The notes under the pieces were generated by a model that was given only the letters and a program-made list of their open reading frames with translations, ran no database searches and was not told where the DNA came from. A program made the position numbers and the translations under genes. A DNA stretch of 64,000 nt from Kutzneria viridogrisea (lineage in GTDB: Bacteria > Actinomycetota > Actinomycetes > Mycobacteriales > Pseudonocardiaceae): NCBI GenBank assembly GCA_014138725.1, contig JACJID010000001.1:124001-188000 (forward strand). The letters are read 5' to 3'. Shown one piece after another: positions 6,345 to 28,904 of this stretch. Positions within the stretch are counted from its first letter, which is position 1, and each line of letters opens with the position of its first letter.

Positions 6345-9300
6345 GTGGACGGTTCGACGATGCGGGTGGACGAGGGCACGGCGAGCCTGGCGGCGCTGGT
6401 CCAGGCGCGGGCCGAGCGCGCACCCGGTCGGCGGGCGCTGGTGTTCGAGGACACCGCGCTGACCTACCGGGAACTGACCGAGCAGGCGCACCGGCTGGCC
6501 CGGTTCCTGCTGGCGCGCGGGGTCGCGCCCGGGCAGCGGGTGGCGCTGGCGCTGCCGCGCTCGGTGTCGATGATCGTGGCGATGCTCGCCGTGGCCGAGG
6601 TCGGCGCGGCCTACGTGCCCGTGGACCCGGACTACCCCGCCGACCGGATCGCCTTCATGGTGGCCGATTCGGCCCCCGCCCTGCTGCTGACCGACAGCAC
6701 GGTCGCCGGGGCGCTGCCCGAGCTGGCCGCCCCTCGGCTGCTGCTGGACGACCCGGAGATCGCCGCCGCTGTTGCTTCCCAGGAAGATACTGGGGTCGGC
6801 ATCGAGGTCAGCCCGGCCAGCCCGGCGTACGTGATCTACACCTCCGGTTCGACCGGCCGTCCCAAGGGCGTGGTCGTGCCGCACGCCGGTGTGGTCAACC
6901 ACATGCTGTGGCAGGCCGAGGCCTGGGACGTGGACGAGCAGGACGTGGTGCTGGCCCGCACCGCGTTCAGCTTCGACGCGGCGGGCTCGGAGATCTGGCT
7001 GCCGCTGCTGGCCGGGGCCACGATCTGCCTCGCGCCGAGCACCGTGACCCGCGACCCCGAGGCGCTGGTGGCCTACGCCGCGCGGCACGGGGTCACCGTG
7101 GCGCAGTTCGTGCCCTCGCTGCTGGCCGTCACCGCCGAGGCCATCGCGCGCGCCGAGAACCTGGCGCTGCGCCTGGTCTTCGTGGCCGGTGAGGTGCTGC
7201 CGCCCACGCTGGCCGAACAGGTCGTCTCCGAGTGGGGTGTGCGGCTGGCCCACCTGTACGGCCCCACCGAGGCCTCGGTGGACGTCACCGGCTACGAGGC
7301 GCGGCCCGGGTGCGGCAACGCCCCGCTGCCGATCGGCCGCCCGGTGTGGAACACCAGCGCGTACGTGCTGGACGAGGCGCTGCGACCGGTCGAGCTCGGT
7401 GTGACCGGCGAGCTCTACGTGGCCGGTGTGCAGCTGGCGCACGGCTACCTCAACCGCCCCGGCCTGTCCGCGGAGCGGTTCGTGGCCGACCCGTTCGGCG
7501 AGCCGGGCACCCGCATGTACCGCACGGGTGACCTGGCCCGCTGGAACGCCAACGACGAGCTGGACTTCCTCGGCCGCGCCGACGACCAGGTCAAGGTGCG
7601 CGGGTTCCGCATCGAGCTGGGCGAGATCGAGGCCGCGCTGGCCCAGTGCGAGGGCGTGCGCCGAGTGGCCGTCCTGGTGCGCGAGGACCAGCCGGGAGAC
7701 AAGCGCATCGTCGCCTACGTGGTGTCCGATGTGGACAGCGGCGAGCTGCGGACCGCGCTCGGCGAGCGGCTGCCCGAGTACATGGTTCCCTCGGCGATCG
7801 TCGCGCTGGAAGACTTCCCGCTGGCGCCCAACGGCAAGCTGGACCGCCAGGCACTGCCGCGTCCGCGCTACGAGACCACCAGGGCCGCCAGCACCGAGCA
7901 GGAGCAGGTGCTGTGCGGGCTGTTCGCCGAGGTGCTCGGCATGGCCGAGGTCGGCGCCGAGGACAACTTCTTCGACCTCGGCGGTCACTCCCTGCTGGCG
8001 GCCAGGCTGATCGCCCGCCTGCGCTCGCAGCTGCGCGTCGAGCTGCCGGTCCGCGCGCTGTTCGAGGCGCCCACCGTGGCCGAGCTGGCCCGTCGCCTGG
8101 ACGCCGCTGTGACGGCCCGGCCCGCACTGTCCAAGGTGGACCGTCCGGAGCGCCTGCCGCTCTCGCCTGCCCAGCAGGGCCTGTGGTTCCTGCACCGCCT
8201 TGAGGGCCCGAGCGCGACCTACAACATCCCGCTGGCCCTGACCATGACCGGCCAGGTGGACCGGGACGCGCTGCGGCTGGCCCTGGCCGACGTCGTGGAC
8301 CGCCACGAGTCCCTGCGCACGGTCTTCCCCGACGAGGAGGGCCGCCCGTACCAGCACGTCCTGGCCTCCGGCCCTGACTTGTCCTTTGTGGACCTCAAGC
8401 CGGGTGCCGTGGAGCAGGCCGCCCGCCACGCCTTCGACCTGGCGGCCGAGGCCCCGCTGCGGGCCACGCTGTTCTCCGAGGGCGACCGGCACGTGCTGCT
8501 GCTGGTGATGCACCACATCGCCAGCGACGGCTGGTCGGAGCGCCCGCTCATCGCCGACCTGTCCACCGCGTACCAGGCACGACTGCACGGCGCCGCACCG
8601 GACTGGGCGCCGCTGCCCGTGCAGTACGCGGACTACACCCTGTGGCAGCAGCACGACCTCACCGAGGGGCTCGCCTTCTGGCGTGAGGCCCTGGCCGGTG
8701 TGGCCGAGCTGGCGGAGTTCCCCAGCGACCGGCCGCGCCCCGCCGTGGCCTCGCACCGCGGTGACGAGCTGACCTTCGCCTTCGAGGCGGACCTGCACCG
8801 GGCCGTCACGGACCTGGCCCGCAGCACCGGCAGCACCGTGTTCATGGTGGTGCAGGCCGCTCTGGCCACCCTGCTCACCAGGCTCGGCGCGGGCACCGAC
8901 ATCCCGCTGGGCACGCCCGCCGCGGGCCGCACCGACGAGGCGCTGACCGATCTGGTCGGCTACTTCGTGAACACGCTCGTACTGCGTACGGACACCTCCG
9001 GGGACCCCAGCTTCCGCGAGCTGCTGGCGCGGGTCCGCGAGGCCGACCTCGCCGCCTACGCCCACCAGGACGTGCCCTTCGACCGGCTCGTCGAGGAGCT
9101 CAACCCGCAGCGCTCCCTGGCCAACACCCCGCTGTTCCAGGTCATGCTGACCTTCGAGAACCTGGGCGAGGCCGCGCCGCGACTGCCCGGCCTGGACGTG
9201 GCGGTCAGCGAGATCCCCACCGGTGTGGCCAAGTTCGACATGGACCTGCGCCTTCAGGAGCGGCACACCGCCGACGGCCTGCCCGACGGGGTCACCGGCA

Positions 9301-27300: not shown

Positions 27301-28904
27301 TCGAGCTGGGCGGGGACAGCATCCTGTCCCTGCAAGTGGTCAGCCGGGCGCGCAACGCGGGCATCGTGATCAGCGCGCGGGACGTCTTCCGGTACGGCAC
27401 TCCTGCCGCGCTGGCCGCCGCGGCCGGCTCGCAGGGTGCCCGCGCGGAGGAGCCGGACGCCGGGATCGGCGCGATGCCGCTGACCCCGATCATGCGCTGG
27501 CTGCGTGAACAGGGCGGCCAGTACACCGGGTTCAACCAGTCCATGGTGGTCCAGGTGCCCGCCGACCTCGGCATGGACCGGCTCACCACGGCCGTGCAGG
27601 CACTGCTCGACCACCACGACGCCCTGCGCGGCAAGCTGTCCGACGCCGCGCTGGTGATCGCCCCGCGCGGTGCGGTGCGCGCCAAGGATGTGGTGCAGCG
27701 GGTGGACGTCACCAGGCTGGACCTGGCCCAGGCCGTCACCGAGCACGGCGGCTACGCCAGGGACCGGCTCGCCCCCGCCGACGGGGTGATGGTGCAGATC
27801 GTGTGGTTCGACGCGGGGCCGAACGAGTCCGGGCGGCTGCTGCTGGTGCTGCACCACCTGGTGGTGGACGGCGTGTCCTGGCGGATCCTGTTGCCGGACC
27901 TGGCCGCCGCCTGGCACACGGCGGCGCGCGGCGACCAGCCGGTGCTGGACCCGGTGCGGACCTCGCTGCGCACCTGGGCGCACGCGCTGGCCACGCAGGT
28001 CCCCGCCCGGCGCGCAGAACGTCCACTGTGGACGTCCATGCTCGGCGGCACCGACCCGCTGCTGAGTGGGCGTGCTCTGGACCCGGCGGTGGACGTGGCC
28101 GCCACGGTGCGCGAGGTGGAGCTGACTCTGTCTACAAAGGACACTGAGGCGCTGCTGACCGCGGTGCCCGCGATGTTCCACGCCGGGGTCAACGACGTGC
28201 TGCTGACCGGGCTGGCGCTGGCCGTTGCCAGGTGGCGCGAGCAGCGCGGCCTGTCCGGTGACGGGGTGCTGGTGGACCTGGAGGGCCACGGCCGCGAGGA
28301 GATCGTGGACGGGCTGGACCTGACCCGCACGGTGGGCTGGTTCACCAGCCTGTTCCCGGTCCGGCTCGACCCGGGAACCCCGTCCTGGCAGGAGGTCCAG
28401 GCCGGTGGGCACGCGGTCGGCCAGGCCGTCAAGCAGGTCAAGGAGCAACTGCGGGCGCTGCCCGACCACGGCATCGGCTACGGCCTGCTGCGCTACCTGG
28501 ACCCCGAGCCGCACCTGGACCCGGTGAAGCCGCAGATCGGCTTCAACTACCTGGGCCGGTTCGGCGCGGGCACGGCGGGGGACTGGGCGCTGGCCGAGGA
28601 CGTGTCCGGGCCGGACGGGCGTGACCCGCGCATGCCGCTGGCGCACGCGCTGGAGGTCAACGCGGTCACCGAGGACCGCGCGGACGGGCCCGCGCTGACC
28701 GCGACCTGGTCCTGGCCGGACGCGCTGTTCACCGAGTCCGAGGTCCGCGAACTGGCCGAGGCGTGGTTCGAGGCGCTGCACGCGCTGGTCGAGCACGCGC
28801 AGGCCCCCGGTTCGGGCGGGTTCACCCCCTCGGACCTGTCGTTGGTGTCGCTGAGCCAGGACGAGATCGAGGACCTGGAAGAGGAATTGGGGAGCTTCGA
28901 GTGA
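6345..28904 (+). CDS. giant NRPS, eight modules, four of them without a working adenylation domain
   Basis: About 7519 aa. Order by approximate residue: A1 15-510, T1 (GGHSL ~545); C2 603-1025, A2 remnant, T2 (GGDSI ~1159), E2 1217-1655; C3 1690-2110, no A, T3 ~2164; C4 2221-2660, A4 2668-3185, T4; C5 3282-3720, A5 degenerate, T5 ~4090; C6 4149-4590, A6 degenerate, T6 ~4923; C7, A7 5420-5919, T7; C8, A8 6449-6952, T8 ~6990, E8 7044-7495. Hand-read codes: A1 DASQFALVDK (unassigned), A4 DFWNVGMVHK (Thr), A7 DILQLGLIWK (Gly), A8 DAWTVAAVCK (Phe, then D). All C domains keep HHxxxDG; those after E domains look like D-residue acceptors. The GTG start has GAGGAG 8 nt upstream. It lacks a starter C domain. 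It overlaps the next NRPS gene at GTGA. Confidence 0.95.
9430..9710 (+). other. module 2: remnant of an adenylation domain
   Basis: Between C2 and T2 only about 90 residues remain, matching the extreme C-terminal subdomain of an A domain: [16 protein letters not shown] and [10 protein letters not shown] are recognisable. The whole ATP-binding core and the A10 lysine motif are gone. The following T and E domains look intact, so the module needs an amino acid supplied in trans. Confidence 0.85.
12670..12755 (+). other. module 3: adenylation domain completely absent
   Basis: The end of C3 (ELVELNWDG) runs through a roughly 20-residue linker straight into the carrier-domain start RAPRTPQEE. Normally about 500 residues of A domain lie here. 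C3 (HHVLFDGWS) and T3 (GGHSL) look functional, so this is a C-T module. Confidence 0.9.
17578..18495 (+). other. module 5: degenerate adenylation domain
   Basis: About 305 residues show faint A-domain order ([29 protein letters not shown]), but the ATP loop [11 protein letters not shown] is missing, YGPTE is replaced by [15 protein letters not shown] is lost and NGKLDR reads RGTVDR without the catalytic Lys. It cannot activate an amino acid by the normal mechanism. The flanking C5 and T5 domains are intact. Confidence 0.85.
20155..21000 (+). other. module 6: degenerate adenylation domain
   Basis: About 280 residues retain the A1-A2 region ([29 protein letters not shown]) and a piece around RTGEKARW, but the A3 loop and YGPTE are gone and everything after A7, including the A10 lysine, is deleted. 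C6 and T6 are intact. Confidence 0.85.

Follow-up and report, generated by a model that had tools for sequence, protein, structure and literature searches.

Nonribosomal peptide synthetase (NRPS) modules that lack an adenylation (A) domain can be loaded in trans, and several such cases have been described (PMC8949500, PMC7539972, PMC12400406, PMC8552735). According to the portions of these reports that were available to us, CmnA-A1 charges the A-less protein CmnI with L-2,3-diaminopropionate (L-Dap) (PMC12400406), two trans-acting A domains serve the WS9326A assembly line (PMC7539972), and a type II thioesterase (TE) was proposed as the shuttle to the A-less module of rotihibin (PMC8552735). 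The accounts of SidC and of the Streptomyces albulus poly-Dap synthetase, likewise available in part, describe one in-line A domain that can charge the next two modules (PMC10192304) and an A domain that prefers L-Dap and resides in the same chain as the polymerase (PMC4668381), respectively. Here we analyse NRPS1, a protein of 7519 residues encoded by a single open frame in a 64,000-bp stretch (the window; G000:C1:124001-188000) of the 10.25-Mb genome of Kutzneria viridogrisea, of whose eight modules four lack an A domain. A preliminary description of this DNA had regarded single A-less modules as the known situation; such precedent does exist, but the statement undersells it, as the parts of those reports seen describe two trans A domains for WS9326A and a pair of A-less modules in SidC. 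No report of four A-less modules in one protein was found among the titles and abstract starts searched, which mostly excluded subscription journals, and none of the literature matches checked at that level dealt with this cluster.

Motif scans of NRPS1 revealed HHxxxDG in all seven condensation (C) and both epimerisation (E) domains and the GG[HD]S core in all eight carrier (T) domains, while the A3 P-loop was found in modules 1, 4, 7 and 8 only, giving the order A+ A- A- A+ A- A- A+ A+. In Pfam searches of module slices, these four modules contained complete A domains, with AMP-binding reaching the end of the profile and followed by AMP-binding_C. The slice of module 2 matched AMP-binding_C alone (profile positions 2-69 of 76), and that of module 3 matched PP-binding alone, with no A-domain fragment whatsoever. 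Module 5 retains late A-domain pieces (AMP-binding profile 284-377 of 384, plus AMP-binding_C) and no P-loop, and its A10 motif reads GTVDREAL, with the Lys lost. Module 6 retains early pieces (a best AMP-binding stretch at profile 1-76 and one further stretch) and has neither a P-loop nor AMP-binding_C. The preliminary description had located the gaps at residues 1030-1126, 2110-2140, 3739-4052 and 4594-4886 and had stated that modules 2, 3, 5 and 6 keep their C and T core motifs in the absence of an ATP-binding A domain, and that module 2 keeps its E domain. These ranges were correct, the profile search of them returned no complete A domain, and the HHxxxDG motif of the module 2 E domain is retained, so that the description of the architecture holds.

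To find orthologues, the module 5 remnant was searched against 390 genomes of the family (E<=1e-30) and matched, besides its own genome, only G089, which carries an orthologous cluster with the same four modules devoid of A domains. Within the genus (seven genomes, our own included), a full match was confined to our own genome, the matches in the others being ordinary A-domain C-termini. A contig scan with an alignment of FAAL-KR-ACP, another protein of the cluster, covered the best 80 of 209 relatives (78 distinct loci) and recovered seven loci carrying the cluster (L016-L020, L023 and L071, from Allokutzneria, two Saccharopolyspora, three Streptomyces and one Actinoplanes; L016 is the G089 locus). 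With our own cluster and G523, which came from the search for A-T-TE relatives described below, this amounts to nine members, a lower bound since the scan was restricted to those 80 relatives. By T and C motif reading, modules 2, 3 and 5 are A-less in 9/9 NRPS1 proteins and module 6 in 8/8 of those in which it was reached, the Actinoplanes KI2 protein stopping before T6. All nine proteins fit one module order as far as each extends, and the A3 motif is kept in A1 and A4 of all nine and in A7 and A8 of the five read through. The T5 core is GGQS in both Saccharopolyspora proteins. T6 of Streptomyces TRM49041 (L101-L102), included in our counts, lies near a contig end and resembles T7 of G523; it is possibly an assembly chimera or a product of gene conversion. 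Because the same modules are A-less throughout the nine clusters, neither recent decay into a pseudogene, which we rejected, nor a sequencing or assembly error accounts for the missing domains. The latter had been named beforehand as what might overturn the observation, and contigs do break inside NRPS1 in four relatives; however, nine assemblies agree, five cover NRPS1 throughout, and one of them (G523, 7473 residues) lies on an 8.0-Mb contig, leaving an error with a practically negligible probability.

Domain-by-domain alignments were cut at motif offsets; a MAFFT alignment of whole NRPS1 misplaced the repeated modules in the two Saccharopolyspora, and its figures were not used. Mean identity was 0.69, 0.65, 0.76 and 0.70 for C2, C3, C5 and C6, compared to 0.78, 0.63 and 0.62 for C4, C7 and C8, and 0.68, 0.72, 0.57 and 0.68 for the intact A1, A4, A7 and A8. 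The A2, A5 and A6 remnants reached mean pairwise identities of 0.52, 0.51 and 0.48, and their lengths ranged from 95 to 163, 139 to 340 and 207 to 399 residues among members, respectively (139-164 residues for A5 in the eight other clusters). Nei-Gojobori dN/dS ratios from up to four close pairs were 0.27-0.63 for the remnants, 0.13-0.36 for C2, C3, C5 and C6, and 0.22-0.45 for A1, A4, A7 and A8, with overlapping ranges. Judging from these comparisons, the A pieces are under relaxed constraint without being free of it, and the A-less modules are kept; their C domains are as conserved and as constrained as the others, which argues that the modules are used. The ratios for T domains, noisy because these are short, were 0-0.17 for T3, 0.03-0.26 for T4, 0.30-0.60 for T2, 0.18-0.79 for T5, 0.25-0.43 for T6 and 0.10-0.50 for T1.

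The shared cluster encodes one stand-alone canonical A domain, in an A-T-TE protein present in 9/9 clusters, as well as MbtH and the two L-Dap biosynthesis enzymes. Among frames of at least 350 residues with an A3 motif, the stretches read from the eight other members contain NRPS1, NRPS2, FAAL-KR-ACP and A-T-TE only, and a 104-kb region of our own genome contains these four plus three frames from window position 59980 on, which belong to the next, unshared cluster. The A-T-TE specificity code is DIWQSTADDK in seven of the nine members and DIWQSTVDDK in the two Saccharopolyspora. A search of a class sample of 394 genomes (E<=1e-170) yielded A-T(-TE) relatives in 20 genomes, our own included, and 20 stretches were taken from 18 of the other 19 (G607 was the one omitted, two genomes contributed two stretches each, and contig ends truncate three stretches); one of them, L131 from G523, is the ninth cluster member. 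All 20 A-T(-TE) proteins have the code DIWQSTADDK. Homologues of TauD2, SbnB and SbnA occur together in 17/20 stretches, SbnA being broken by a contig end in one of these 17, and in 15/20 a Pls/PosA-terminal protein with no A3 motif lies beside the A-T(-TE) gene or one gene off. Both such neighbours tested carry PP-binding and TIGR02353 over cut-off. Judging from the A-less carriers beside the relatives and from the identical code, the family probably loads Dap onto carriers of other proteins, and it looks like a Dap loader that has been split off and serves A-less carriers. Dap is the substrate predicted for A-T-TE from its neighbour genes. The exact code was not found in the literature searched; DVWQMIGDDK, given for a beta-OH-Dab domain in the part of the source available to us, has 6 of 10 letters in common with it (PMC12283262). 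The protein also bears an N-terminal extension of about 200 residues. For a structure model of its N-terminal 225 residues (pLDDT 80, pTM 0.81), the Foldseek matches listed are NRPS structures that bear C domains or C-like structures (best E 2.6e-10, TM 0.61 by query), and we call the extension half-C-like on account of its length.

The relatives also define a split poly-Dap-like cassette in actinomycetes (L126-L130, L132-L139, L143 and L145), consisting of an A-T or A-T-TE protein and an A-less Pls/PosA-terminal membrane protein, always with a TauD and mostly with SbnB and SbnA; the TauD suggests that the residue or the polymer is oxidised.

We thus propose, with a probability of roughly 0.6, that T2, T3, T5 and T6, or most of them, are charged in trans by A-T-TE with a Dap-derived unit. 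Modules 2, 3, 5 and 6 would be functional C-T modules, having lost their A domains in a common ancestor of the cluster. A-T-TE would adenylate L-Dap and load its own T domain, TauD2 may oxidise the residue bound to this carrier, and the residue would then be passed to the four carriers by the TE of A-T-TE, by the free TE at 38981 or through direct A-to-T contact helped by the half-C-like extension, thereby entering the peptide at several positions. FAAL-KR-ACP may instead supply one of the four sites, perhaps T6, with a hydroxyacyl unit. A bolder form of the proposal, which we rate at somewhat under even odds, is that a single A-T-TE, shared with the split poly-Dap-polymer cassette, charges all four sites with oxidised Dap, so that the in-line A domains were no longer needed and underwent parallel decay across actinomycetes. 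The preliminary description had taken one or more trans-acting enzymes to be implied by the architecture. Trans charging is indeed the best reading, with a stand-alone A-T-TE in the cluster and its relatives mostly found beside A-less carriers, but it is not strictly implied, since SidC offers a precedent for in-line loading of the next two modules and the module order here fits it.

By inspection, we noticed a pattern at position Ser+2 of the T domains, including an Arg common to T6 and the ACP, that had not been predicted. The self-loaded carriers T1, T4, T7, T9, T10 and T11 have Leu in 49/50 cases; among A-less carriers, Leu occurs in 0/9 T3, 0/9 T5 and 1/8 T6, these positions being Ser/Thr in T3 (9/9), Ser/Ala in T5 (9/9) and Arg in T6 (7/8). 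We count this departure of A-less carriers from Leu in favour of the proposal. T2 has Val (8/9), compared to Leu (4/5) or Met (1/5) in T8. The A-T-TE carrier has Ser (9/9) and the FAAL-KR ACP has Arg in the eight read (8/8). Among 79 self-loaded T domains elsewhere, Leu occurs in 33, Ser in 17 and Arg in none, and Arg was found in 3/28 GGDSI-type T domains elsewhere. Helix II likeness to the A-T-TE carrier (of 13) was 4.78 for T5, 4.62 for T6, 4.44 for T9, 4.40 for T7, 4.11 for T1 and T11, 4.00 for T3 and T10, 3.78 for T4, 2.89 for T2 and 2.00 for T8; the signal is too weak to assign partners among the free carriers. Specificity codes were read with GrsA numbering. A1 reads DASQFALVDK or near, module 9 is of the DVWH type and module 11 is variable. 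We take the codes of modules 4, 8 and 10 to be Thr-like, Phe-like and Asn-like, and that of module 7 is presumably Gly-like (in our own and the Saccharopolyspora proteins) or Phe-like (in G089).

Several observations weigh against charging by A-T-TE. Leu at Ser+2 is no general rule for self-loaded carriers (33/79 outside the clusters), T2, T3/T5 and T6 have no common signature, and in helix II the A-less T domains resemble the A-T-TE carrier only marginally. A polymerase neighbour is absent from four of the 19 stretches that are not cluster members. Our own genome encodes a complete free A domain in the next cluster (G000:C1:198860-200404), and the stretches of the other members end before the corresponding downstream position, so that a distant extra loader is possible. 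A-T-TE has its own TE and could also set an amino acid free for use by an in-line A domain, for instance A1. An order of A+ A- A- also fits in-line cross-loading, in which A1 would charge T1-T3 and A4, with its Thr code, T4-T6, in the manner of SidC A3, which loads T4 and, to about 35%, T5 in a two-protein assay according to the part of the report available to us (PMC10192304). The regular module order, kept in members, and the A3 motif of A1 and A4 (9/9) agree with cross-loading; we nonetheless consider it unlikely, as it would leave A-T-TE, whose relatives are mostly paired with A-less carriers, with no carrier to serve.

A mixed supply, in which A-T-TE would serve T2, T3 and T5 while FAAL-KR-ACP and the TE would deliver a hydroxy acid to T6 or another site and thereby create a depsipeptide bond, is rather unlikely but deserves consideration. 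The TE gene adjoins FAAL-KR-ACP in members, G523 included, T6 and the FAAL-KR ACP share the Arg that is absent from the 79 ordinary self-loaded T domains, and 5 of the 8 FAAL-KR relatives examined, which are 43-52% identical, have A-less C-T proteins no more than about 20 kb away. However, an Arg at Ser+2 common to such partners, which we looked for, failed in 5/5, most clusters of those relatives have a stand-alone A-T as well, in helix II T6 is scarcely more like the ACP (6.86 of 13) than T1 (6.38) and T9 (6.25) are, and the Arg association was spotted after looking. Finally, the A-less modules might be dead or skipped, yielding a peptide shorter than the module count. Their A domains are truly gone, and the noisy dN/dS ratios are higher in T2, T5 and T6 (0.18-0.79) than in T3 and T4 (0-0.26), which also speaks against our proposal; yet C and T motifs are intact in nine clusters and the constraint on the C domains equals that of complete modules, making disuse very improbable.

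The genes around NRPS1 are listed in Table 1. Those for MbtH, TauD2, the second TauD, SbnB, SbnA and the ornithine carbamoyltransferase (OTCase)-like protein are found in 9/9 clusters, and an ABC transporter and permease in 8/9, the exception being the stretches fetched from S. hirsuta. The second TauD gene adjoins SbnA in six of the other eight members and lies beyond A-T-TE in both Saccharopolyspora. Elsewhere, our own genome encodes another OTCase, which scores over cut-off (383 bits); the cluster paralogue could serve to carbamoylate Dap, to provide citrulline or to confer self-resistance. In FAAL-KR-ACP, two short pieces resembling A-domain C-termini were seen by eye, at 39799-39858 (its start) and 43084-43203 (between KR and ACP). 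TE and FAAL-KR-ACP pairs occur near a stand-alone A-T at L026, L027, L028, L036, L037, L041, L047, L084 and L152-L163, and several of these loci also have A-less C-T proteins; we read the whole set as dissociated NRPS clusters. At the other loci, 7/79 C..T pairs had no A3 motif, each in a separate open frame, a figure that is not a random base rate since these loci were chosen for their FAAL-KR or A-T-TE relatives. A second NRPS cluster (A-T-C..., with a 3937-residue frame and, among others, a free A domain at L002 10860-12404) begins just downstream (window 60010-64000 and L002); the Allokutzneria stretch showed nothing equivalent. A HilA-like dioxygenase gene (56323-57204) and a TauD gene (57303-58775) lie between the two NRPS clusters.

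Table 1. Genes of the cluster and domains of the A-less modules of NRPS1, in window coordinates.
Feature	Position	Strand	Evidence or remark
Second TauD-family gene	1566..2549	-	9/9 clusters
Ornithine carbamoyltransferase-like paralogue	3504..4412	+	260 bits, below 280.85 cut-off; 9/9 clusters
NRPS1, A-T / C-(A*)-T-E / C-T / C-A-T / C-(A*)-T / C-(A*)-T / C-A-T / C-A-T-E (A*, remnant)	6345..28904	+	motifs, Pfam, orthologues
C2 domain	8151..9422	+	HHIASDG intact
A2 remnant, C-terminal subdomain fragment only	9432..9710	+	Pfam AMP-binding_C 2-69/76 only
T2 carrier, A-less	9723..9944	+	GGDSI; motif and Pfam
E2 epimerisation domain	10035..11306	+	named by position and HHxxxDG-type match to C family
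C3 domain, after E	11400..12668	+	motif
T3 carrier, no A trace ahead of it	12744..12959	+	Pfam
C5 domain	16176..17537	+	motif
A5 remnant, P-loop absent, A10 Lys lost	17559..18500	+	motif and Pfam
T5 carrier, A-less	18528..18740	+	motif
C6 domain	18783..20129	+	motif
A6 remnant, P-loop and AMP-binding_C absent	20142..21002	+	motif and Pfam
T6 carrier, A-less	21027..21239	+	motif
NRPS2, C-A-T-C-A-T-C-A-T-TE	28901..38824	+	begins with a GTG that overlaps the stop of NRPS1
Stand-alone thioesterase with type II architecture, possibly a shuttle	38981..39769	+	beside FAAL-KR-ACP in members
FAAL-KR-ACP, stand-alone	39766..43470	+	domain search, members
MbtH-like protein, matched core	43486..43644	+	homologues in members
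[half-C-like]-A-T-TE, code DIWQSTADDK, proposed trans-loader	43786..46971	+	domains, code, relatives
TauD-family oxygenase (TauD2), conserved cassette partner	46919..47950	+	homologues
SbnB, 2,3-diaminopropionate biosynthesis	47995..49008	+	TIGR03944, 426 bits, cut-off 326.9
SbnA, 2,3-diaminopropionate biosynthesis	49019..50002	+	TIGR03945 over cut-off

If our proposal is correct, NRPS1 would be a natural case in which a single loading enzyme serves several selected modules of the same assembly line, and its products are predicted to be peptides rich in a Dap-derived residue. It would bear on how free A domains choose their carriers and on the engineering of peptides by one enzyme swap instead of four. 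The nine-member family, in which intact and A-less modules stand side by side, makes the rules of carrier recognition testable.

The closest known systems, for which we rely on the parts of the reports available to us, agree with the cluster in some features and differ in others. In syringomycin (SyrB1/SyrE), ramoplanin, enduracidin and rotihibin (RthB/RthD), a stand-alone A-T protein supplies a module that is A-less or has an inactive A domain; likewise, C and T domains are intact here with no functional A domain, and a stand-alone A-T is encoded in the same cluster (9/9). Those systems have one A-less site each and an A-T loader, whereas here the loader would be an A-T-TE facing four sites. 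The ramoplanin and enduracidin A-T proteins also have an N-terminal extension, of 300 residues; that of A-T-TE is about 200 residues long and, in our reading, half-C-like. WS9326A (Cal22/Cal23) resembles NRPS1 in having more than one A-less site per assembly line served in trans, but uses two free A domains for one residue each (Thr and Asn), where one canonical free A domain would serve four sites here. Capreomycin (CmnA-A1/CmnI) shares an A-less module charged in trans, the L-Dap residue and an MbtH partner, trans charging and the Dap substrate being proposals in our case; SbnA and SbnB score over cut-off here and have homologues in 9/9 clusters. It has one A-less module, on a separate protein and loaded by an in-line A domain, in contrast to the four that NRPS1 contains and the stand-alone A-T-TE of this cluster. 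In the ferrichrome-type SidC, a complete module is followed by two consecutive A-less ones and one A domain serves several T domains; A-less modules 2-3 and 5-6 of NRPS1 directly follow complete modules 1 and 4 in the same way; SidC is fungal, with an in-line loader and no stand-alone A-T, unlike this cluster. No match to TIGR02353, the terminal membrane domain of the Pls/PosA homopolymer synthetases, was found among the window genes scanned with NCBIfam, nor was a polymerase domain found beside the A-T-TE of the ninth member. The poly-Dap synthetase PDAPs of Streptomyces albulus PD-1 (Pls/PosA family) is alike in its Dap genes and, if the predicted substrate of A-T-TE is right, in its Dap-preferring A domain, and the A-T-TE relatives mostly adjoin a Pls/PosA-terminal protein; PDAPs is one A-T-membrane protein, whereas the A domain is split off in the A-T-TE relatives and its partner here is an eight-module NRPS.

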